Assembly (NCBI GenBank): GCA_003141235.1
Contig: PLLL01000069.1
Coordinates: 8,734 to 56,402 of the forward strand
From: Dehalococcoidia bacterium
Lineage (GTDB): Bacteria; Chloroflexota; Dehalococcoidia; Dehalococcoidales; RBG-16-60-22
Reading direction: 5' to 3'
DNA length: 47,669 bases
Part shown: piece by piece, positions 2,761 through 20,505 of the stretch
How the letters are laid out: every line of letters starts with the position of its first letter
Position numbering within the stretch: position 1 is the first letter of the stretch
Program-made: the position numbers and the translations under genes
Notes under the pieces: model-generated
What the model was told of the DNA's origin: nothing
Databases searched by the model: none
The model's input: only the letters and a program-made list of their open reading frames with translations

Positions 2761-3319
2761 CCTTATATAGCCACTTGCGGAAAATGTACCGGCTGAACCA
2801 CGGCATCACCGCCCAGGTCAAAGCTCCCACTACCAGCGCGCTTGTCAGGATATTCAACAGGTAAAAGTTCCAGTTCAGCTTTAATAGTTCCTCTAACTTA
2901 ACGAACAGGACGGACATTGCGTAAACGGCTAGCGTGGTGATGAGAAACATCTTCCATTGCGGCGGCGTCGTCAGTTCCGGGCACTCAGGGATAGAAAACC
3001 ATGTCTCCATTCCGGTCGCTTCCTGTCGGCTCTTTACAGAGAAAGCGTCTGCCTCGTGCGATAGCTTCTGGCGGATATAGGAATCCTCCCACCTGTGTAC
3101 GGACTCAGCATCCGTAAAGCGCAGTATGGCATGGTATAATCCGGGTTTGCCGGGGCCGGGTGTGAGCATCGTCGCTCCCGTGTTGCCCGGGGCTTCTGTC
3201 GCTGCATCCACCAGCCGGTGCACCCAGGCGATATAGTCCCTGTCGTGCCCCGGTAATACCTGTCGGCTTATCACCACGGTCACCGGTTTTTCCTGAGGCA
3301 TATTAGTTTCATTTTCCAT
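2756..3319 (-). CDS. Antibiotic biosynthesis monooxygenase (ABM)-domain protein with C-terminal TM helices
   Basis: VTVVISRQVLPGHDRDYIAWVHRLVDAA plus two hydrophobic helices, ABM-TM architecture. Confidence 0.8.
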   Translation of the reverse strand: MENETNMPQEKPVTVVISRQVLPGHDRDYIAWVHRLVDAATEAPGNTGATMLTPGPGKPGLYHAILRFTDAESVHRWEDSYIRQKLSHEADAFSVKSRQEATGMETWFSIPECPELTTPPQWKMFLITTLAVYAMSVLFVKLEELLKLNWNFYLLNILTSALVVGALTWAVMPWFSRYIFRKWLYKE

Positions 3320-9123: not shown

Positions 9124-9984
9124 GTGAGCATCTGGAAAATGAAGAAGTCTGGTATCTGTCTTACAGTTGTCTTGCTACTAAGTCTGGCGGTGGGTATCTT
9201 TACCGGCGGATGCGCCGCAGAAAAATCCTCAAAATTACAGGTAGTCACCAGCACATCACTGCTTGCCCAGATAGTCGAGCGCATTGGGGGAGATAAAGTC
9301 AGCGTGGTAAGCATTATTCCCCCGGCGCAGTGCCCGGGGACTTTTGATATCAAGCCGGGCGATGTCCAGAAGCTGGTCGATGCCCGGCTTTTTTTCATAC
9401 ATAACTGGCAGGGCGAGAAATTTACCACCGATTTGATTGCCTCGGCCAATAATAAAAACATGACCACGGTTAGTATTGAGCTGGCGGGCAACTGGATGAC
9501 GCCTCAGGTACAGCGCGACGCCACCGATAAAATTGTGGCTGTTCTGGCGCAGATTGACCCTGACAACAGCGCGGTTTATCAAAAAGCCGCGAGTGAATAC
9601 AAAGCCGCGGTAACGGCCAAGGAAACTGAAGTTAAAAGCAGGCTGGCCAAGGTCAATCTTGCCGCGGTCAATGTTCTCTGTGATGAGCAGCAAGCCGATT
9701 TCGTTAAATGGGCGGGGCTAAATATTGTGGCCACTTACGGCAGGCCGGAAACCTTTACTCCCCAGGTAGTCAAAGACCTGGTGGACAAAGGCAGAAGTGG
9801 TAAAGTGACACTGGTTATTGATAATATGCAGACAGGCGGAGAATCCGGGAAGAGCCTGGCTGAACAGCTAGGGGCAAAGCAGATTACGCTGTCAAATTTC
9901 CCGGGCGGTTATGATAAAACTGAGACATGGGAAAAAGCCATCGATAAAAATATCGAGCTGGTATTAAACTCAACCGGGAAGTAA
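9124..9984 (+). CDS. ZnuA/TroA-like (cluster A-I) substrate-binding lipoprotein, divergent ligand set
   Basis: Lipobox FTGGCAA; LQVVTSTSLLAQIVERIGGDKVSVVSIIPP; KPGDVQKLVDARLFFIHNWQGE; canonical His ligands not conserved. Confidence 0.82.
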   Translation: MSIWKMKKSGICLTVVLLLSLAVGIFTGGCAAEKSSKLQVVTSTSLLAQIVERIGGDKVSVVSIIPPAQCPGTFDIKPGDVQKLVDARLFFIHNWQGEKFTTDLIASANNKNMTTVSIELAGNWMTPQVQRDATDKIVAVLAQIDPDNSAVYQKAASEYKAAVTAKETEVKSRLAKVNLAAVNVLCDEQQADFVKWAGLNIVATYGRPETFTPQVVKDLVDKGRSGKVTLVIDNMQTGGESGKSLAEQLGAKQITLSNFPGGYDKTETWEKAIDKNIELVLNSTGK

Positions 9985-9996
9985 AAGAACATCAGG

Positions 9997-10788
9997 ATGA
10001 ATGCAGGTAGTTTACATAACTATTCCATCGATATCGAGAATGCGGTGGTTTCTTACCGCGAGGATGTTGCCCTCCGCGGCGTATCGCTGAAAGTTAAAAG
10101 CGGGGAGTTCGTCGGCATTATCGGGCCCAATGGGGCCGGTAAGACCACGCTGCTCACTATCGTGAACGGGATGGGCAGACTGCTTCACGGTCAGGTGAGC
10201 GTCCTTGGCTATACCCTGACTAATGGCAATGGCCATTCCCTGAGGAAAAAGGTCGGTTATGTGGCGCAGGCGCAGACCATCGACCCCAGAATGCCGATAA
10301 GCGTTCGCGAGGTGGCGATGATAGGGCGATACGGTCGTCTCGGACTGTTCCGGAGGCCCGGCAAGCATGACTGGGAAATCGTGGATACGGCGCTGGATAT
10401 GGTGGGGATGACCCATCTTGCCCGGCGCCCGATAGGGCATCTTTCCGGTGGTGAGCAGCAGCGGGTAGCTATTGCGCGCTGCCTGGCCCAGGAACCGGAG
10501 ATATTCCTGCTGGATGAGCCGACAGCTTCACTGGACTGGAAGGCGAAGACCGACATTCTGGAGCTGGTGAAGCGGATTCATGACGCCAGAAAGCTGACCA
10601 CCCTGTTTGTCACCCACGATTTAAGCGCTCTTCCCATTGCCTGTGACCGCGTCGTGCTGATGAAAGACGGACTTATCCGGGACGAAGGCTCGCCCGGAGA
10701 CTTATTGACGGATGTAAAACTGGGGCAGCTCTATGATATGCCCGTGGCTGAGGTGGAAAAAAGACGCGGAGCGGCCGCGCTGGCTTAA
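9997..10788 (+). CDS. Metal-type ABC transporter ATP-binding protein (ZnuC-like)
   Basis: [43 protein letters not shown]. Confidence 0.93.
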   Translation: MNAGSLHNYSIDIENAVVSYREDVALRGVSLKVKSGEFVGIIGPNGAGKTTLLTIVNGMGRLLHGQVSVLGYTLTNGNGHSLRKKVGYVAQAQTIDPRMPISVREVAMIGRYGRLGLFRRPGKHDWEIVDTALDMVGMTHLARRPIGHLSGGEQQRVAIARCLAQEPEIFLLDEPTASLDWKAKTDILELVKRIHDARKLTTLFVTHDLSALPIACDRVVLMKDGLIRDEGSPGDLLTDVKLGQLYDMPVAEVEKRRGAAALA

Positions 10789-10806
10789 TATTACAGGTAT
10801 TAGCGT

Positions 10807-11655
10807 ATGGATTTCTCTATATTAACTTATCCGTTTATGCAGAATGCGCTCCTTTCCGCCTTCCTTGGCGGTATTGCCTGCGCTGTTATCGGCGTTTTTG
10901 TGGTGCTGCTGCACATGCCCTTTATCGGTGTTTGCATGTCGCACGCCGCTTTCGCCGGGGCACTGCTGGGGCTGTGGCTGGGTTTTGACCCGTTAATCGG
11001 GGCTTTCGCTTTCAGCCTCGGAGTGGCGGCTATCGTCGGTCCGCTGGCTGACCGCGGCGAGCTTAATCCGGAGACATCCGTTGGGGTATTATTTTCTTTG
11101 ATGTTGGGGTTAGCCTTTCTCTTCATGGGATTAATGCCCGGCCCGAAATCACAGGCTTTAGAGCTACTATGGGGCAGTATTCTCACCAATACACGGAGCG
11201 ATATTATAGTTTTAGCCGTAGTGGCTTTCCTGGTAGTAGGTATTGTATTATTGTTCTTCAAGGAGATTCAGGCCACGGTGTTCCAGCGTGATATGGCGCG
11301 CTCCGTGGGCATACCGGCGACGCTGATGCTCTACGGTATTCTTTTTATGACAGGAGCCACGATCACGGCATCATTCAGCTCTATCGGCGGGCTGCTTATT
11401 TTCAGCCTGATTTTAAATCCGGCTGCTGCGGCTTACCAGCTTACTTACAGCCTCAAGCGCATGTTTCTTCTCGCGGCGGCTTTCGGCGTCCTCTCCAGCT
11501 GGACAGGCTTGTTTTTTTCCTATCTTTTCAATATTCCCAGCGGCGCCACCATCGTTATAACTTCCTCGGTAATCTTTGCGATAGCGGTCATTTTTTCTCC
11601 CAAGAGGAAAGTGAAACGCTGGCAGAAGAAGCTGCTGGTGGAGAAAGCATCATGA
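10807..11655 (+). CDS. Metal-type ABC transporter permease (ZnuB-like)
   Basis: ABC-3 family TM protein, HAAFAGALLGLWLG, SSIGGLLIFSLILNPAAAAYQLT. Confidence 0.92.
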   Translation: MDFSILTYPFMQNALLSAFLGGIACAVIGVFVVLLHMPFIGVCMSHAAFAGALLGLWLGFDPLIGAFAFSLGVAAIVGPLADRGELNPETSVGVLFSLMLGLAFLFMGLMPGPKSQALELLWGSILTNTRSDIIVLAVVAFLVVGIVLLFFKEIQATVFQRDMARSVGIPATLMLYGILFMTGATITASFSSIGGLLIFSLILNPAAAAYQLTYSLKRMFLLAAAFGVLSSWTGLFFSYLFNIPSGATIVITSSVIFAIAVIFSPKRKVKRWQKKLLVEKAS

Positions 11656-12293: not shown

Positions 12294-12938
12294 TTATTTA
12301 CCCTCGCTCAGCCCGTGTTGAATGGCTATAACGGCTGCCTGGGTGCGGTCGGATACGCCCAGCTTGGACAGAATGGCGCTGACATGATTCCGCACGGTGC
12401 CCTCGGAAAGAAATAGCCGGTCGGCGATATCCGTGTTGCTTAAACCTCTGGCGATTAAACGTAAAACCTCTATTTCGCGGTCGGTCAATTTGCTGGTAAT
12501 CAAGGTGGCCGGCTGGGTCTGGTGGCTGGAGGCCTGGCGCAGCACTTTCCCGGCTACCGATGGGTCGACAAATGTTTTTCCGGTTACCGTTCCCCTGATT
12601 GCCTTGACGACCTCATCACGGGGCGTATCCTTAAGAAGATACCCCGATGCTCCGGCCTGTATCGCGTCGAACACCCATTCATCGTCGTCGTAAGTGGTCA
12701 GGACAAGAATTTTTATCTCAGGATGCTTCGCTTTTATCTGACGAATAGCCTCGACGCCATTCATAATCGGCATCTTCAAGTCCATTAGAACCAGGTCGGG
12801 CATCTTTTTAGCTACTAACTCCACGGCAGCGGCGCCATCGTCGGCTACGCCGAGGATATCAATATCCGGCTCAAGCTTTAATAACATTTCCAGTCCGTCC
12901 CGGACAATAGCCTGGTCATCGCAAATTACAATTTTCAT
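12294..12938 (-). CDS. NarL/LuxR-family response regulator
   Basis: REC domain (DLVLMDLKMP) and HTH LTDREIEVLRLIARGLSNTDIADRLFLSEGTVRNHVSAILSKL. Confidence 0.95.
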   Translation of the reverse strand: MKIVICDDQAIVRDGLEMLLKLEPDIDILGVADDGAAAVELVAKKMPDLVLMDLKMPIMNGVEAIRQIKAKHPEIKILVLTTYDDDEWVFDAIQAGASGYLLKDTPRDEVVKAIRGTVTGKTFVDPSVAGKVLRQASSHQTQPATLITSKLTDREIEVLRLIARGLSNTDIADRLFLSEGTVRNHVSAILSKLGVSDRTQAAVIAIQHGLSEGK

Positions 12939-14287
12939 GGCCGTTCCACCTTTTTAATGACTAACCTGATGGTGGTGCCGGAACCGGGCTTACTGGTGAT
13001 ATTCAGCTCGCCGCCCACCAGTTGTGCGCGTTCCTGCATCCCCGCCAATCCAAAGTGACTGGTTTTATCGATTGTATCTGCGTTAAATCCGGTGCCGTCA
13101 TCACTCACGGAAAGGCTAACTTGACCCTCGATACATTCTAATTTAAGCGTAAGTTTCTTTGCGCTGGCATGTTTCACAGTGTTGGTGATCGCTTCCTGCA
13201 CCACCCGGTAAATACAATGCTCAACATCGGGTGACAGGAGCGGCATCATGATTATTTCCGGCATATCCAGGGTCAGACTGGCGCGTGACGCCGCATCTTC
13301 GGCCATTTTTCTTAAAGCCAGCGCCAAACCCATATCATCCAGAGGACTGGCGCGGAGCGATTTCAGCGCCCGGCGGGTTTCTTCCAGCCCGGAATGAGTG
13401 GCTGTTAAAGATTTTTCCAGTATGGAGTGCGCCGTTGGTTTATCAACGTCCCAATAAGCTTTAATTGTTTCTAACTGGACAGACAGGCCGCTCAGGGTAT
13501 GCGCCAGCGTGTCGTGCAGTTCCAGCGCCAGGCGGTTGCGTTCGCGGCTTGTGGACAACTGCTCCAGCGTGCTGGCATACTGCGTCAGCCGGCTGTTGGC
13601 TGCCTCCAGAGATTGCTGCTGGGCTCTCAACCGGCTCATGAGATAGCTGATGGAAAAACCCACTACCAGGAAAATAACAGTCTGAATCAAAAATACCCCC
13701 AGCACTCCCTGGAAAGGCTGTGTGCCCGGCCCGGCGGAAGACCACCTGACGGCCAGGTTTAAAGCGGTAATCCCCAGGATAATGAACAGGATATGCTGCC
13801 ACTTATATTGCCAGGCAACCAGCAGCAGCGCGACGAACAGAAAAGGAAACATTACCAGTACCGTGGCCTCCGGGGAGCCGAAACGCGGGCCGAGAGGCGA
13901 AAGTTGACCTGTATAATAATTGATAATAACCGGCGAAATAGCGGTAATGGCAATTACTACCGGGATAAACGCCTGCCTGAGCTTTCCCTGTAGCCACGGC
14001 CAGTAGGCCAGAACAAGGCAGAGAAGAGCGATACTCCCGTATAAAATATAGTAAAGATAACTATTATCTTGTACAGTGGCTTGTTGCGGCAACGCTAGCT
14101 GAAGAAATTGTTGAGGCAAAGTCTGGTTTACCGAGGCTTGTTCCAGTATTTGTCGCGGCAGTTGCTCTGATTGCGGTGATTGAAAAACCTGGTTAATAAC
14201 AAATAATACGATGACATAGCCGAGCAAGAGAAAGGCGGCCATACGTATCATCCGTACCGCATCCGAACGTGGAGTTGTAATCTTCAT
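12935..14287 (-). CDS. Membrane sensor histidine kinase (HisKA_3, DesK/NarX-like)
   Basis: RNRLALELHDTLAHTLSGL phosphoacceptor, HATPase QEAITNTVKHASA, multiple TM; ATGA overlap with RR; start chosen at MKITTPR (track ORF begins 14332). Confidence 0.93.
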   Translation of the reverse strand: MKITTPRSDAVRMIRMAAFLLLGYVIVLFVINQVFQSPQSEQLPRQILEQASVNQTLPQQFLQLALPQQATVQDNSYLYYILYGSIALLCLVLAYWPWLQGKLRQAFIPVVIAITAISPVIINYYTGQLSPLGPRFGSPEATVLVMFPFLFVALLLVAWQYKWQHILFIILGITALNLAVRWSSAGPGTQPFQGVLGVFLIQTVIFLVVGFSISYLMSRLRAQQQSLEAANSRLTQYASTLEQLSTSRERNRLALELHDTLAHTLSGLSVQLETIKAYWDVDKPTAHSILEKSLTATHSGLEETRRALKSLRASPLDDMGLALALRKMAEDAASRASLTLDMPEIIMMPLLSPDVEHCIYRVVQEAITNTVKHASAKKLTLKLECIEGQVSLSVSDDGTGFNADTIDKTSHFGLAGMQERAQLVGGELNITSKPGSGTTIRLVIKKVERP

Positions 14288-14323
14288 ACCTGCATTATAG
14301 TCCATGGGTATCCTCAATGCATG

Positions 14324-14423
14324 TAACTCCAATCATTAATTGTTAACTTTCTCCATGACACGTGTCATTATTGCCGGTTGTGTAAATCATGGCAAGGGTC
14401 ACTATTTAATGACACCGCACACT
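14324..14423. promoter_or_regulatory. Operator module A: conserved phased block with palindrome ATGACACGTGTCAT
   Basis: Gapless alignment with 16164-16263; palindrome at 14355-14368; sits between the HK gene and the 14616 gene. Confidence 0.75.
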
Positions 14424-14615
14424 ATTCCCTGATTATTTTCTATTATAAGCTGGAGATGAAAAGCAAAAATACAGCGATTAACCTTTGGGATGAAGTAACA
14501 AGGAATGAAAAATATAAAGATTTATAAGAATGAAACACACCGCGGCAAAAGTAATATTTTATTCATAAGTCAAGCGTATTATTAGATTTAAACAGTAAAG
14601 GAGGGAAAAACAGAT

Positions 14616-15440
14616 ATGAAAAATACACCATTTCTAATTGCCGTTATTGTTATCATCATCGGTGTGGTCGGATTCCTTGTTTACCATAGCCAGGCATCGT
14701 CAACTATTACCCTTAATGAAGCGTCTATCGCTTCTTTGGAGAGCCAGGCAACATCACTGGGAAACCAGCTTACGACTGCCAATACCGAGATTACCACATT
14801 ACAGACCCAGGCTCTTGCCGATGGCAACCAAATCAATACTTTACAGAACAATCTGAGTACCTCTACGGCACAGGCCGCTTCATTACAGGGACAGGTGACT
14901 TCGGCTAACGGTCAAATTACCACTTTACAGACCCAGTTGGCTACTATCACTTCGCAGGCTGCCTCGCTGCAGACCCAGTTCGATACCGCTAATGCGCAGC
15001 TTGCCACGCTTCAGACGCAGGTGGGCACCTCCAGTACGCAAATTACGTCCCTGCAAAATCAGCTCGCTACTGCCAATACCCAGATCGTCACGCTGCAGGC
15101 TTCTATTACTACTCTTCAGAGCACGCTTAGTCTGTCTCTTTCCACCACGGAGCTTAACGAGAGCGCTCTCACTCAGGCCGCCGGAGCGGAAACCATGATT
15201 GTCTCCTTTACGGCTGATAATGCAGGATATGTCTACGTAGCGGGCACGAGCTCGAGCGCTACGGCATTCATCCGGGTTACCGGCTCTTACGGCGGGTATA
15301 CCTACACCGGCAGCCACATTTTCGGTACAAGTAATACGGTAATCATACCGGTGTTGCCCGGTACAGTTTATGTCTATTTTGGAAATACGGATTCATCAGG
15401 TACTCCGACAGCTGATATCAGCGTCACTTATGACTATTAA
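14616..15440 (+). CDS. Secreted/membrane-anchored protein with charge-poor coiled-coil stalk and beta-rich C-terminus
   Basis: N-terminal TM; repeated T-LQTQ/SLQ-Q heptads; SD aaaggaggg. Confidence 0.85.
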   Translation: MKNTPFLIAVIVIIIGVVGFLVYHSQASSTITLNEASIASLESQATSLGNQLTTANTEITTLQTQALADGNQINTLQNNLSTSTAQAASLQGQVTSANGQITTLQTQLATITSQAASLQTQFDTANAQLATLQTQVGTSSTQITSLQNQLATANTQIVTLQASITTLQSTLSLSLSTTELNESALTQAAGAETMIVSFTADNAGYVYVAGTSSSATAFIRVTGSYGGYTYTGSHIFGTSNTVIIPVLPGTVYVYFGNTDSSGTPTADISVTYDY

Positions 15441-15547
15441 TCGAGCGAGGGGGAAACATGATAGTTACGCGGTTGTCTGTCAGTAAGAAGGAGGTAAAGT
15501 GAAAATAACTATCAAACTAACGAATTCAATAAGAAAGGAGGTGAGCT

Positions 15548-16012
15548 ATGTTACGAAATAAGAAATGGATAACCATCATAGTACTGGCAGCTACTTTAGT
15601 AATACTGCTTGGCGTCGTCGGCGGTATGGCTTATGCCGCGACTGGAACCACTACCACCGCTAATACCACTGCCAATGACCCGGCCAAGACCCTGTATGCT
15701 AAAGTCGCCACTATTCTGGGGATTGACCAGACAAAACTGGAAGCAGCGTTTACCCAGGCCCAGAACCAGATGCGTGATGAAGAACTGACCAACCGGCTTA
15801 AGAGTATGGTTGACCAGGGTACCATCACCCAGGCGCAATCCGATGCGTATCTGAAGTGGTGGCAGTCAAGACCTGATGTTGCCTCTCAAATCGATGCCGG
15901 AGGCGGACATGGAATCCCCGGAGGTCCTCAGGGTATGCAGGGACTAGGGGGTAATGCTCCACAGGGACCGGGCGGTAATGCGCCGTCCGCTCCAACCACT
16001 ACCACCAAGTAA
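15548..16012 (+). CDS. Small secreted protein, DUF2680-like, with Gly/Pro-rich tail
   Basis: Signal peptide; KVATILGIDQTKLEAAFTQAQNQMRDEELTNRLKSMVDQGTITQAQSDAYLKWWQSRP; SD aaaggaggtg. Confidence 0.8.
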   Translation: MLRNKKWITIIVLAATLVILLGVVGGMAYAATGTTTTANTTANDPAKTLYAKVATILGIDQTKLEAAFTQAQNQMRDEELTNRLKSMVDQGTITQAQSDAYLKWWQSRPDVASQIDAGGGHGIPGGPQGMQGLGGNAPQGPGGNAPSAPTTTTK

Positions 16013-16048
16013 AGTGATACCGTTTTACCTCTTTCTATACTGGCATTT

Positions 16049-16080
16049 GAGAGGGCGAGGTTACTCGCCCTCTCTTGTTT
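16049..16080 (+). terminator. Rho-independent terminator
   Basis: GAGAGGGCGAG-gtta-CTCGCCCTCTC followed by TTGTTT. Confidence 0.9.
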
Positions 16081-16163
16081 ATCCAGGAATTCCCTCGATC
16101 ATAATCGCTCTGTTTATACCTGTATGTCAACTATTTCATCATCAGGTTAGGCGTTTATAAGCA

Positions 16164-16263
16164 TAACTCCAGTCATGCCTTGTCGCCCCTCACCATGACA
16201 GGTGTCATATAAATCAATCAGGTAAATCATGGTTGAAATATCTATTTGATGATTGCAAACACT
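16164..16263. promoter_or_regulatory. Operator module B: conserved phased block with palindrome ATGACAGGTGTCAT
   Basis: Gapless alignment with 14324-14423; palindrome at 16195-16208; 115 bp upstream of the 16323 gene. Confidence 0.75.
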
Positions 16264-16322
16264 GTCTGGTGAATTCGGGTCTACGGTAAGCTGATGATGG
16301 AAACAAAAAACAGGAGGAAAAA

Positions 16323-16805
16323 ATGAACTGGAAAAAATCACTATGTGTAGCAATTCTTACCGGAGCAGCGTTGGCTGCCATGGCAGGCTGTGGTCAGGTC
16401 GAAACGACAATACCTGCCACAGTGCAGACAACGTCTGTAACACAGCAAAGCACTGCGGTTGCAGTGCAGACACAGTCCGCAACCAAGCAAGGAACTGCAC
16501 CCACAGGGCAGATGCCTCCATCTGGCGTCAGTATTAACGGTACCATGCCGGCTGCTCCAACCATGGATCTGGCAGCGGCGGCAGCCAAGCTTGGGATAAC
16601 CCAGGTCCAGCTGAGCGCAGCACTGGGCAATACCCAGTCGGGGTTTCCGGATCTGGCATCGGCAGCCACAAAGCTCGGCATAACTGAAGACGCGCTCCGG
16701 CAAGCGCTCGGGTTCTCAAATAATGGCACGATGCCGGGCGGTACTCAACAGGGGGGCCCTCCACCGAGTGGTACTCCACCGACTGGCACACTCCCGGCCA
16801 GTTAA
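16323..16805 (+). CDS. Small lipoprotein with two LGIT helical repeats and Gly/Pro tail
   Basis: Lipobox AAMAGCG; DLAAAAAKLGITQVQLSAALG and DLASAATKLGITEDALRQALG; SD caggagga. Confidence 0.8.
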   Translation: MNWKKSLCVAILTGAALAAMAGCGQVETTIPATVQTTSVTQQSTAVAVQTQSATKQGTAPTGQMPPSGVSINGTMPAAPTMDLAAAAAKLGITQVQLSAALGNTQSGFPDLASAATKLGITEDALRQALGFSNNGTMPGGTQQGGPPPSGTPPTGTLPAS

Positions 16806-16878: not shown

Positions 16879-18600
16879 GTGAAACTAATGAAAATGGCAA
16901 CCACAATCATGATTCTTTGCGCAGTTCTGTTTCTATCCGTGAGCTGCTCTTCCAAAGCGACTACCACGGTTAAGACACAGAATGTTACGGTCACAAAAGG
17001 AAGTATTTCCGTAGCCATCACCGGCACTGGCAATTTGGCTTTATCCCGCACTGAAAGTCTGGCTTTTGAAATGGCGGGATATGTTGAATCAGTCCTGGTG
17101 AGTGCAGGCGATTCTATCACGAAGGGGCAGAATCTGGCTACGCTGGATACTTCGGAATGGCAAACACAGCTGAAAACCCTGCAAAAAGCGCTGGTAACAG
17201 CGCAGCGTAATCAGACTACTAAGGAAAAGGCTCTTACCACGGCTGAAAAAGCGGTGATTACCAAGGAAAGCGCCGTAACCACTGCCGAGCGCCAGGTTAC
17301 CGCCAAGGGATATTTGGTGCAGCAGGCACAGCTTAATGTAACGTCAGCCAATGATACTCTTTACCAGATAGCAGTCGTGAAAAAAGCCCAGGACGAAATA
17401 GATAACGCTGAATATACTATAAAGTTTGCTACAAACGTGCTGGGGGGTGCGCTAGGGGGAGGACTAACCGGTGATACCGCCTATTGGACCCAGTTGAAAG
17501 CCCTTGCCGAGACAGAACTCATTCAAGCTAAGGCGGATCTGGCAGACATTTTAAGTGGCTACAACCTCACGGTTTCGACAGATGTGGCCCTGCAGGTAGC
17601 TAAAGACCAGCTGGCGGTGACGAAGAGCCAGATGGACCTCGAAGATGCCCAGATAGCGGTAGACACTGCCAAATTGGCTGTTACTGATGCCCAGTTGTCG
17701 GTAGACGATGCCAACTCCTCCGTGACAGACGCCAAACTGGATTTAGAGGATGCAAAAACCGCTGTGGCTGACGCTCAGAGCGCCTTAGATGATGCGAAAG
17801 GCCTCAGCCCGGTTATTACCGCTCCTTTCGACGGCTTTATCAGTAAAGTCAACGTGACCGGAGGAGCCGAAGTATATAAGGGCACAATAGCCATGGTAAT
17901 TGCCGACCCCGACCAGTTTTCGGCGAAGATATCGGTCACCGAAGATGATATCTCCTCTGTCAAACTGGGGTCGGACGCAACGGTTACTGTAACTGCTTTA
18001 TCCGATAGCTTCCCCGCCAAAGTAACTGTGATTTCACCTACGGCTACGATTTCTTCAGGTGTGGTCAGTTACTCAGTCACCGTGAACATAACCTCACTCA
18101 AGCCTATTACCACCACAACTACTACCAGTCAATTGCCGGCATCGGCTAATAGAACAATGCCCTCCGGGCTGCCGTCTGGTAATTTTACAATGCCTACGGC
18201 CGTTCCCCAAACTACTGCGTCAACGACTGCAACCGCCACCAGTACAGCTAACGTAACGCTGAAGGATGGTTTGTCGGCGACGGTTGAAATAGTCTCGCAA
18301 CAAAAAGACAATATCCTCATAATCCTCAGTAAGGCTATCACGAGTAAGAGCGGGGTAAGTACGGTCCAGGTAGTTACTACGGGTACCGCTACCGAGACAC
18401 GCACCATCACCACCGGCATCACCGATGGCACCTATACCGAGATAACCTCGGGGTTGACTGAAGGGGAACAGGTTGTTATTAAATCCAGCACCACTTCATC
18501 CAGTTCTTCTTCCAGTACTATGACAGTCAGTTCGCAGATGCAGCTGCAATCTTTAAGCGGTGGAATGCCGAGCGGCGGGCCGCCCGGAGGAGGGTTCTAA
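16879..18600 (+). CDS. RND/MacA-type periplasmic adaptor (membrane fusion) lipoprotein with extended coiled coil
   Basis: Lipobox LFLSVSCSS; biotinyl-lipoyl-like VESVLVSAGDSITKGQNLATLD; ITAPFDGFISKVNVTGGAEV; long DAQ-DDA-DAK repeats; GTG start. Confidence 0.9.
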   Translation: MKLMKMATTIMILCAVLFLSVSCSSKATTTVKTQNVTVTKGSISVAITGTGNLALSRTESLAFEMAGYVESVLVSAGDSITKGQNLATLDTSEWQTQLKTLQKALVTAQRNQTTKEKALTTAEKAVITKESAVTTAERQVTAKGYLVQQAQLNVTSANDTLYQIAVVKKAQDEIDNAEYTIKFATNVLGGALGGGLTGDTAYWTQLKALAETELIQAKADLADILSGYNLTVSTDVALQVAKDQLAVTKSQMDLEDAQIAVDTAKLAVTDAQLSVDDANSSVTDAKLDLEDAKTAVADAQSALDDAKGLSPVITAPFDGFISKVNVTGGAEVYKGTIAMVIADPDQFSAKISVTEDDISSVKLGSDATVTVTALSDSFPAKVTVISPTATISSGVVSYSVTVNITSLKPITTTTTTSQLPASANRTMPSGLPSGNFTMPTAVPQTTASTTATATSTANVTLKDGLSATVEIVSQQKDNILIILSKAITSKSGVSTVQVVTTGTATETRTITTGITDGTYTEITSGLTEGEQVVIKSSTTSSSSSSSTMTVSSQMQLQSLSGGMPSGGPPGGGF

Positions 18601-18601
18601 A

Positions 18602-19270
18602 ATGATACAGCTGCAAAATATCATTAAATCCTATCCTATGGGCAAAAGGGAACTGACCGTGCTGCAGGGCGTTAATCTCAACATCGAAAAGGGAGAAATG
18701 GTGGCCATCATGGGGCCCTCCGGCTCAGGCAAGAGCACCCTCCTTAACCTTATCGGTTTGCTGGATAAGCCCACCTCCGGCAGCTATTTGCTGGAAGGTA
18801 AAGAAGTCGGTCAACTCGGTGGCCGGGAGCTGTCTAAAGTACGCGCACAGAAGATAGGTTTTATCTTCCAGAGTTTTAATCTGCTGTCCTATCTTTCGGC
18901 CATCGATAATGTTGAACTGGGACAGGAATATGCCGGCCAAGACAATATTCAGGCGGCTAAAGACGCTTTGATTAAGCTAGGACTGGAAGACCGTATCCAC
19001 CACCGGCCTAACGAGCTTTCAGGGGGTGAACAGCAGAGGGTAGCCGTGGCCCGGGCCCTGGCCAAAGACCCGCCTATCATTATTGCCGATGAGCCGACGG
19101 GAAACCTGGACAGCAAGGCCAGCAAAGAAATAATGAATGTTCTGAGTAACCTGCATAACGAGCGAAATATTACGCTGATAATGGTTACTCACGACCCTAA
19201 TATTGCCCGTTATTGCCAGCGCATTATTCATATTGAGGACGGGCAGATACTAAGCGAGGAAAAGTTATGA
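18602..19270 (+). CDS. MacB-type ABC transporter ATP-binding protein
   Basis: [55 protein letters not shown]. Confidence 0.95.
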
Positions 19271-20505
19271 AAAGAAAGTTCCTTCGTCCGCTGTTTACTG
19301 CCTGGGTTACTATGATAACGCACAAGCTAAGAAGCTTTTTAACGATTCTGGGCGTCGTTATCGGCGTCGCCGCCGTCATTATCTTAATGTCGGTCGGTAA
19401 AGGGACGACGGCGAGTATCATCAGTAGTATCAGCAGCCTGGGCACGAATCTGGTCTATGTCCAGCCGGGTTCAACCACGTCGGGGGGAGTCAGGTCGGGC
19501 TTCGGCTCGGCCAGCACTTTAACCCTGGAAGATGCCAAAGCTATTGCCAATGAAATTTCGAATATCACGGCGGTCGCTCCTTATGCTACCTCGAACGCGC
19601 AGGTCATTTTCGGCAGCAATAATATGAATGTCAGGATTACCGGCGTGACGATAGAATACCAGGAGGTGTTAAACATCGTCGTGACCGAGGGTGATTTTTT
19701 CACTCAATACCAGTATGACACCAAGGCGAAGGTAGCGCTTCTCGGATCCCAAGTCGCCAGCACGCTTTTCGGTACGGATGACCCCGTCGGACAGAAAATA
19801 AAAATGAGTAATACCGTTTTTACTGTTATCGGCCTTTTGGAGAGTAAAGGGTCATCCATGATGAATTCAACCGATCAGACTATCTTAATCCCTTTAACTA
19901 CCTTGCAGGGGATGATGTCGAGTTCGGTTACTGCCACGGGTCAACACACCATCAATTCCATAGACGTGCTGGTTACCGATAAAGATCAGATGAGTACGGT
20001 AAAAGACGATATCACCGCTTTATTGCAGACCCGTCATAAAATCGCCTTAGGTGCTGATAACGACTTTTCCGTGAGCTCCTCGGATGAACTCATCAGCACC
20101 ATCTCCTCGTCAACGGAAAGTATGACTATGTTGCTGGGAGCCATCGCCGGTATTTCTCTTCTCGTGGGCGGTATCGGCGTGATGAATATCATGCTGGTAT
20201 CCGTCATGGAGAGACGCAGAGAAATCGGCATCCGTAAAGCCCTGGGCGCCCAGGAATCGGCTATCTGGATTCAGTTCCTGATTGATTCGGCGCTGCTGAC
20301 TTTTGCCGGCGGTATCATCGGGGTCGCCATAGGCTGGGGAGGCTCGTACCTGGTTAATTATATGGGATGGTATACGACCGTCGTCACGACGAATGTCATA
20401 ATCCTGGCGGTATCAGTCTCGGTTGGTATCGGCCTTTTCTTTGGCACTTACCCCGCCTGGAGCGCCTCCCGGCTTAACCCCATCGAAGCGCTCAGGTCTG
20501 AATAA
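19267..20505 (+). CDS. MacB/FtsX-family ABC transporter permease
   Basis: MacB_PCD plus FtsX domains, GIGVMNIMLVSVMERRREIGIRKALGA; ATGA overlap. Confidence 0.95.
   Translation: MKRKFLRPLFTAWVTMITHKLRSFLTILGVVIGVAAVIILMSVGKGTTASIISSISSLGTNLVYVQPGSTTSGGVRSGFGSASTLTLEDAKAIANEISNITAVAPYATSNAQVIFGSNNMNVRITGVTIEYQEVLNIVVTEGDFFTQYQYDTKAKVALLGSQVASTLFGTDDPVGQKIKMSNTVFTVIGLLESKGSSMMNSTDQTILIPLTTLQGMMSSSVTATGQHTINSIDVLVTDKDQMSTVKDDITALLQTRHKIALGADNDFSVSSSDELISTISSSTESMTMLLGAIAGISLLVGGIGVMNIMLVSVMERRREIGIRKALGAQESAIWIQFLIDSALLTFAGGIIGVAIGWGGSYLVNYMGWYTTVVTTNVIILAVSVSVGIGLFFGTYPAWSASRLNPIEALRSE

Follow-up and report, generated by a model that had tools for sequence, protein, structure and literature searches.

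The locus and its two intergenic modules

Within the window, the whole stretch of 47,669 nucleotides analysed here, two intergenic segments resemble each other closely. Module A is located between a minus-strand pair of genes for a HisKA_3 kinase and a NarL-type regulator and a gene for a coiled-coil protein. Module B follows a terminator (16049-16074) and precedes genes for a lipoprotein, an HlyD-type adaptor, an ABC ATPase and a MacB-type permease. The features are listed below; the dyads have no strand.

12294..12938, minus strand: response regulator, predicted to be the array-binding protein (Pfam Response_reg and GerE)
12935..14287, minus strand: sensor histidine kinase (Pfam HisKA_3 and HATPase_c; predicted leaderless start at ATG 14287-14285)
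14294..14299, minus strand: -10 hexamer TATAAT of the kinase/regulator promoter (TAnnnT at the exact offset in 27/28 four-dyad loci)
14323..14336: module A kinase-side outer dyad GTAACTCCAATCAT (array position +32; centred at about -42.5 from the predicted kinase transcription start)
14355..14368: module A central perfect dyad ATGACACGTGTCAT (ATGACN4GTCAT conserved upstream of the kinase)
14377..14390: second inner dyad of module A GTTGTGTAAATCAT (spaced 22 bp from the central one)
14409..14422: outer dyad of module A facing the coiled-coil gene ATGACACCGCACAC (array position -54)
14446..14451, plus strand: TAAGCT, the divergent -10 hexamer facing the coiled-coil gene (26/28 four-dyad loci have TAnnnT at the mirror position)
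14616..15440, plus strand: membrane-anchored coiled-coil repeat protein, the first divergent target (ORF; coiled-coil Pfam matches)
15548..16012, plus strand: 154-aa protein, probably secreted, with no Pfam family, upstream of the terminator
16049..16074, plus strand: intrinsic terminator between the two transcription units (8 GC pairs in an 11-bp stem, then a tail rich in T)
16163..16176: module B dyad at the kinase-side outer position ATAACTCCAGTCAT (module A coordinates +1840)
16195..16208: module B central dyad ATGACAGGTGTCAT (module A coordinates +1840)
16217..16230: module B second inner dyad ATCAGGTAAATCAT (module A coordinates +1840)
16249..16262: module B efflux-side outer dyad ATGATTGCAAACAC (module A coordinates +1840)
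16287..16292, plus strand: -10 hexamer TAAGCT of the efflux operon (1 bp off the consensus position)
16323..16805, plus strand: first efflux-operon gene, encoding a lipoprotein with KLGITxxQL repeats (ORF and Pfam scan)
16879..18600, plus strand: HlyD-type membrane-fusion adaptor (PF16576/PF13437, TIGR01730)
18602..19270, plus strand: ABC transporter ATPase (PF00005)
19267..20505, plus strand: MacB-type permease (PF12704 and PF02687)

The terminator at 16049, noted previously from the sequence alone, is strong, with its 11-bp stem followed by a T-rich tail. The coiled-coil gene (14616-15440) has its own Shine-Dalgarno sequence at about 14600. This gene contains 21- and 42-nt direct repeats, and the C-terminal part of its product belongs to no Pfam family. 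Beside the kinase/regulator pair, positions 9124-11655 hold what looks like an operon for a metal-type ABC transporter, with genes for a binding lipoprotein, an ATPase and a permease, and then a methyltransferase gene; these genes were named from their sequences, the methyltransferase alone by Pfam.

The sequence-only reading had aligned 14324-14423 with 16164-16263, and this alignment is real: the two segments share 64 of 100 positions without a gap, whereas the best 100-bp ungapped match between shuffled pairs of the intergenic regions reached 49 (mean 43, 300 shuffles). Directly beyond the 100-bp borders, the identity drops to chance level. Every sequence block named in that reading is found in both copies, and the TCAT/ATGA motifs do fall at offsets 9, 31, 41, 63 and 85 in modules A and B. 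However, they are not five separate half-sites but parts of four 14-bp dyads spaced 32, 22 and 32 bp. Similarly, the shared ACACT block is present and is reassigned here as the far half of the fourth dyad.

Within the 2.15 Mb genome, the arrays are nearly restricted to this locus. A pattern search found ATGACANNTGTCAT at three sites, namely module A, module B and one site on contig C72, and did not find it in any of the 60 related genomes sampled. An array profile gave 50.4 bits for module A and 53.8 bits for module B, plus their reverse-strand echoes, followed by a partial site on C72 (20.6 bits, E 5e-4); the next match had an E value of 0.2. Thus, a repeat family scattered across the chromosome, which would have spoken against an operator, is not what we see: the strong matches are A, B and one partial site only. 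Among 393 genomes of the class, the profile matched in just two others. The detection of module B needed the pattern search and the array profile, since module A, used to query the genome by DNA similarity, returned only itself as a strong match and missed module B. With a held-out profile, whose training set left out the window and its closest relative, module B scored 40.2 and module A 35.4 in the window, where the mean was -102 (sd 17.5) and the best unrelated site reached -20.9. A strict two-dyad pattern with three mismatches gave only chance-level matches. Exact palindromes are uninformative alone, as they occur 1-14 times per genome in 12 relative genomes, many with GC-rich cores. Two single palindromes elsewhere in the genome (L005 and L007) were rejected, with no array around them.

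Conservation of the array upstream of related kinase operons

We collected 80 loci with the response regulator as a query (51-88% identity), mostly from Chloroflexota. Within the order and the class, the kinase is seldom found: as a query, it retrieved no relatives from the collection of genome contigs and few in the order or class. The palindrome ATGACN4GTCAT, allowing one mismatch, precedes the kinase gene in 63 of the 75 testable loci, whereas the other windows of these loci predict 2.3; testable loci are those with enough upstream sequence, and the palindrome window reaches from 1.15 to 1.75 kb ahead of the regulator start, in front of the kinase. Two of the misses (L068 and L096) do carry the array, but were lost to the distance window or the palindrome cut-off. 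No array match at the cut-off used was found in the genomes G031 and G410, where kinase homologues are present. Thus, the blocks and their spacing, which the sequence-only reading had expected to recur in relatives, are kept ahead of related kinase/regulator operons across Chloroflexota. The closest regulator (88%), together with a four-dyad array, is found in a record labelled Planctomycetota (L087, JACNGQ010000285.1), which could reflect either mis-binning of a Chloroflexota contig or a transfer.

The loci were aligned on the central palindrome in the kinase orientation, and the dyad score peaks at 0, +32, -54 and -22. The +32 position scores at least 6/8 in 43 of 52 loci. A four-dyad class (28 loci including the window) has dyads at -54, -22, 0 and +32, and a three-dyad class (16 loci) has dyads at -32, 0 and +32, with a spacing of 32-32. 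In non-redundant sets, half-sites other than the central dyad show 63-72% identity between loci, compared with 34-38% for the spacers. Loci whose regulators are less than 60% identical keep just the 22-bp dyad pair.

Promoter geometry and the kinase start codon

The promoters, the mirror symmetry and the direction of activation are additions to the sequence-only reading. Although hexamer positions played no part in defining the dyad classes, the kinase side has TAnnnT at +69 in 27/28 four-dyad and 12/16 three-dyad loci. The opposite strand has it at -83 in the four-dyad class (26/28 loci) and at -61 in the three-dyad class (15/16 loci). In other words, the divergent -10 of the three-dyad version is nearer by exactly 22 bp. 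The mirror symmetry is exact in both versions, with 33 bp from the outer-dyad centre to the hexamer centre on each side, which corresponds to about -42.5 from the expected transcription start.

Module A has -10 hexamers at both predicted positions, TATAAT (14299-14294, minus) and TAAGCT (14446-14451, plus). In module B, the kinase-side position reads ATGAAA, which is not a -10, and no gene there needs one; nevertheless, the outer dyad on the kinase side is retained (7/8). On its right-hand side, an alternative hexamer, TACGGT, lies 5 bp from TAAGCT. The -35 positions of all three window promoters match only 1-2 of the 6 bases of the sigma-70 consensus by direct reading, and because of these poor -35 elements, a sigma-70 consensus scan found none of the predicted window promoters.

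Autorepression is common among regulators, and the outer dyads abut the promoter region, so that occlusion is conceivable; the regulator could then bind the arrays as a repressor, for example by blocking RNA polymerase at both promoters until phosphorylation or release. We consider this quite unlikely, as the sites lie at -42.5 and further upstream, with none over the -10 or the start, and the poor -35 hexamers without a match in the sigma-70 scan suit activator-dependent promoters.

The ATG at 14287 lies 6 nt past the kinase -10 hexamer. An in-frame start 6 nt after this hexamer is found in most of the 52 loci, and at +81 to +83 in 45 of 52. The kinase mRNA is therefore probably leaderless, beginning at its own start codon. 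A start at TTG 14332, inside module A, was rejected: the conserved -10 and ATG 14287 place the start of the ORF downstream, and translation from this TTG would begin upstream of the promoter, making it an unlikely true start. The same geometry makes it highly improbable that the modules act as RNA, as leader structures or attenuators. The palindromes could fold, but all dyads lie upstream of both predicted -10s and are thus transcribed from neither promoter; they are outside both predicted transcripts, and the kinase start codon coincides with the predicted transcription start.

Secondary arrays and further genomes

In six Anaerolineae loci, a second array lies further along the target operon. 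All six of these secondary arrays keep the dyads at -54, -22 and 0 and the target-side -10 at -83, and all six have lost the +32 dyad and the -10 at its expected position. More generally, one-promoter secondary arrays have no -10 on the unused side, and most also lack the outer dyad of that side. These losses fit an arrangement where each outer dyad serves its own promoter and the inner pair is common to both.

The genome G499 (apparently the same contig as locus L041) encodes a regulator with 78% identity and has an array before the kinase and another before an HlyD-HlyD-ABC-MacB-lipoprotein operon. The efflux-side array has dyads at 709, 741, 763 and 795, with TAAACT at the predicted 832-837. 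G499 thus reproduces the kinase and efflux arrangement of the window in another genome. The partial site on contig C72 (C72:19530-19609; L006, and L154 with the palindrome at 3086) contains three dyads, and at the mirror positions GATAAT and a leaderless ATG precede an alpha/beta-hydrolase-like gene, named from its sequence. This site is plausibly a third target of the regulator.

With these loci at hand, a recent local duplication without regulatory meaning is an exceedingly improbable account of modules A and B. They do have the same orientation, lie about 1.8 kb apart and are 64% identical. However, such a duplication is already contradicted by the phylogenetic footprint: conservation between loci is limited to half-sites and -10 hexamers, with diverged spacers, and second arrays appear at equivalent places in independent loci.

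The regulator and its link to the arrays

The regulator has the domains of the NarL/FixJ (LuxR-type) family (PF00072, E 1.8e-27; PF00196, E 5.6e-21), and the adjacent gene encodes its cognate HisKA_3 kinase (PF07730 and PF02518). Compared with named NarL-family equivalogs (MadR, NarL, NarP, UhpA and others), the best score was 184.6 bits for MadR, below the NCBIfam cut-off of 300. Clustering of ORFs placed the kinase in 63/63 array loci and the regulator family in 58/63, followed by a gene family with 30, although the presence of the regulator is partly by construction because it served as the query that gathered the loci. The recognition-helix region EGTVRNHVSAI is nearly constant among the array loci. 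The closest solved relatives are VraR (5hev, E 1.5e-48) and, also among them, DevR; for the DNA-binding domain alone, the best is 4wsz, which we take to be LiaR. One case counts against the adjacent regulator as the binding protein: in G460 (L153, G460:C90, 577-1885), an array precedes DUF4405 and Cthe_2159 genes, and the best regulator is just 48% identical.

Binding of the dyads by another transcription factor, such as a CRP/FNR-family protein, is unlikely. The 5-4-5 geometry is also that of the FNR-like HcpR sites TTGACnnnnGTCAA (PMC1274295), and the outer dyads lie near -42.5, close to the class II positions near -41.5 that are typical of this family. However, the outer palindrome bases are A/T, not the T/A of HcpR/FNR-type sites, in 94%/88% of the loci, and no regulator other than the kinase's partner is conserved beside the arrays. 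The genome has just three notable array matches, unlike what a global regulator would show, and the form of the array follows the divergence of the regulator, with the 22-bp pair alone below 60% identity.

Probable target genes

The 77 divergent or target genes include 30 PMT_2 glycosyltransferases (27 YkcB-like), 9 GtrA and 9 YHYH genes, as well as Lcl_C, HupE, HlyD, DUF4405 and CotH. In L087, CotH-VTC-DUF4956 genes are divergent to the kinase. Most Anaerolineae loci have glycosyltransferase, GtrA or YHYH genes and not efflux genes, so the regulated function varies between lineages. Since the target products are mostly membrane or secreted proteins, the signal is likely envelope-related. The KLGITxxQLxxALG repeat of the lipoprotein (16323-16805) is also present inside the CotH-kinase protein of L087 (3766-5586) and in L081 (305-421), and it is probably common to products of one regulon.

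Proposed mechanism and its meaning

Modules A and B are very probably operator arrays of the adjacent NarL/LuxR-type regulator, with cooperative binding, class II activation, autoregulation and control of the efflux operon. The results thereby support the sequence-only reading, which had proposed cooperative binding by this regulator and autoregulation. We infer from sequence that phosphorylated regulator dimers would occupy the four 14-bp dyads spaced 32, 22 and 32 bp. Binding would be nucleated by the central dyad (consensus CCATGAC-N4-GTCATGG), with weaker RTGA-type dyads outside. These spacings are near whole helical turns, which would place the dimers on one face of the DNA and make cooperative binding possible. 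As the promoters have a good -10 without a recognisable -35, a dimer on the outer dyad (about -42.5) would substitute for the -35 contact, as in class II activation. The module A array, flanked by the kinase and coiled-coil operons, would be bidirectional and autoregulatory. Module B would be a one-sided copy that brings the lipoprotein-adaptor-ABC (MacB-type) operon under the same control.

A broader reading can be put forward tentatively, as a serious possibility rather than a probability, namely that this is an operator grammar of the whole phylum. Four (or three) dimers on a strictly mirror-symmetric scaffold would drive two promoters, and a 22-bp unit would be added or removed as a block with the outer-dyad-to-promoter geometry fixed on both sides. 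One-sided versions would recruit operons, and the kinase transcript would be leaderless.

The recognition sequence and promoter geometry derived here are precise and testable, and they concern a two-component system that is widespread in Chloroflexota and for which we found no description in the literature searched. The array can be used as a tag for target operons in uncultured genomes (efflux pump, PMT_2/YkcB glycosyltransferase, GtrA, YHYH and CotH/VTC/DUF4956). Its exact mirror symmetry and 22-bp step also offer a natural series on regulator oligomers, phased sites and two-promoter activation.

Comparison with known systems

The closest described arrangement is that of DevR (DosR) on narK2-Rv1738 of Mycobacterium tuberculosis, where four sites are common to two divergent promoters, with cooperative binding and the proximal site over the -35 (PMC7018068, PMC3029386). 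Both cases involve a NarL-subfamily regulator and several palindromic sites of unequal strength, cooperative in DevR (PMC7018068, PMC3029386) and predicted to be so here. The arrays have a DevR-type multi-site layout, that is, four dyads, of which the two outer lie at about -42.5 of the promoters with the divergent -10 hexamers. They differ in their fixed spacing (32-22-32 or 32-32) with mirror symmetry around both -10s, and in having the kinase/regulator operon itself on one side of the divergent pair. Dev boxes are 20-bp palindromes, and their recognition sequence probably differs from ATGACN4GTCAT.

VraR and LiaR belong to autoregulated kinase/regulator pairs acting on envelope functions and are the closest solved relatives of the window's regulator by sequence. 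Their recognition helix is LKTVKTHVSNI versus EGTVRNHVSAI here, and the published VraR/LiaR site is probably a different sequence from the array site. LiaFSR three-component systems include a membrane inhibitor, LiaF, beside LiaS/LiaR; in the array loci, clustering of ORFs revealed no conserved third component besides kinase and regulator. DesR of Bacillus subtilis, another NarL-family regulator, has a membrane-sensing kinase and binds as two dimers to two adjacent sites of unequal affinity. The Streptomyces regulator BldM is a NarL-type protein acting on a 16-bp palindrome, consistent with a dimer, according to the accessible part of its description (PMC4125116). The consensus given there, TCACcCgnncGgGTGA, has its half-sites in the opposite order to the array dyads, and this group I palindrome is not the consensus of our loci, which is ATGACNNNNGTCAT; the same part of the paper describes no phased multi-dyad array (PMC4125116). 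Our literature search returned no paper describing this motif for a NarL-type regulator. The regulator is a NarL/FixJ member outside every named equivalog tested, and its operator layout is unusually clear, symmetric and modular.
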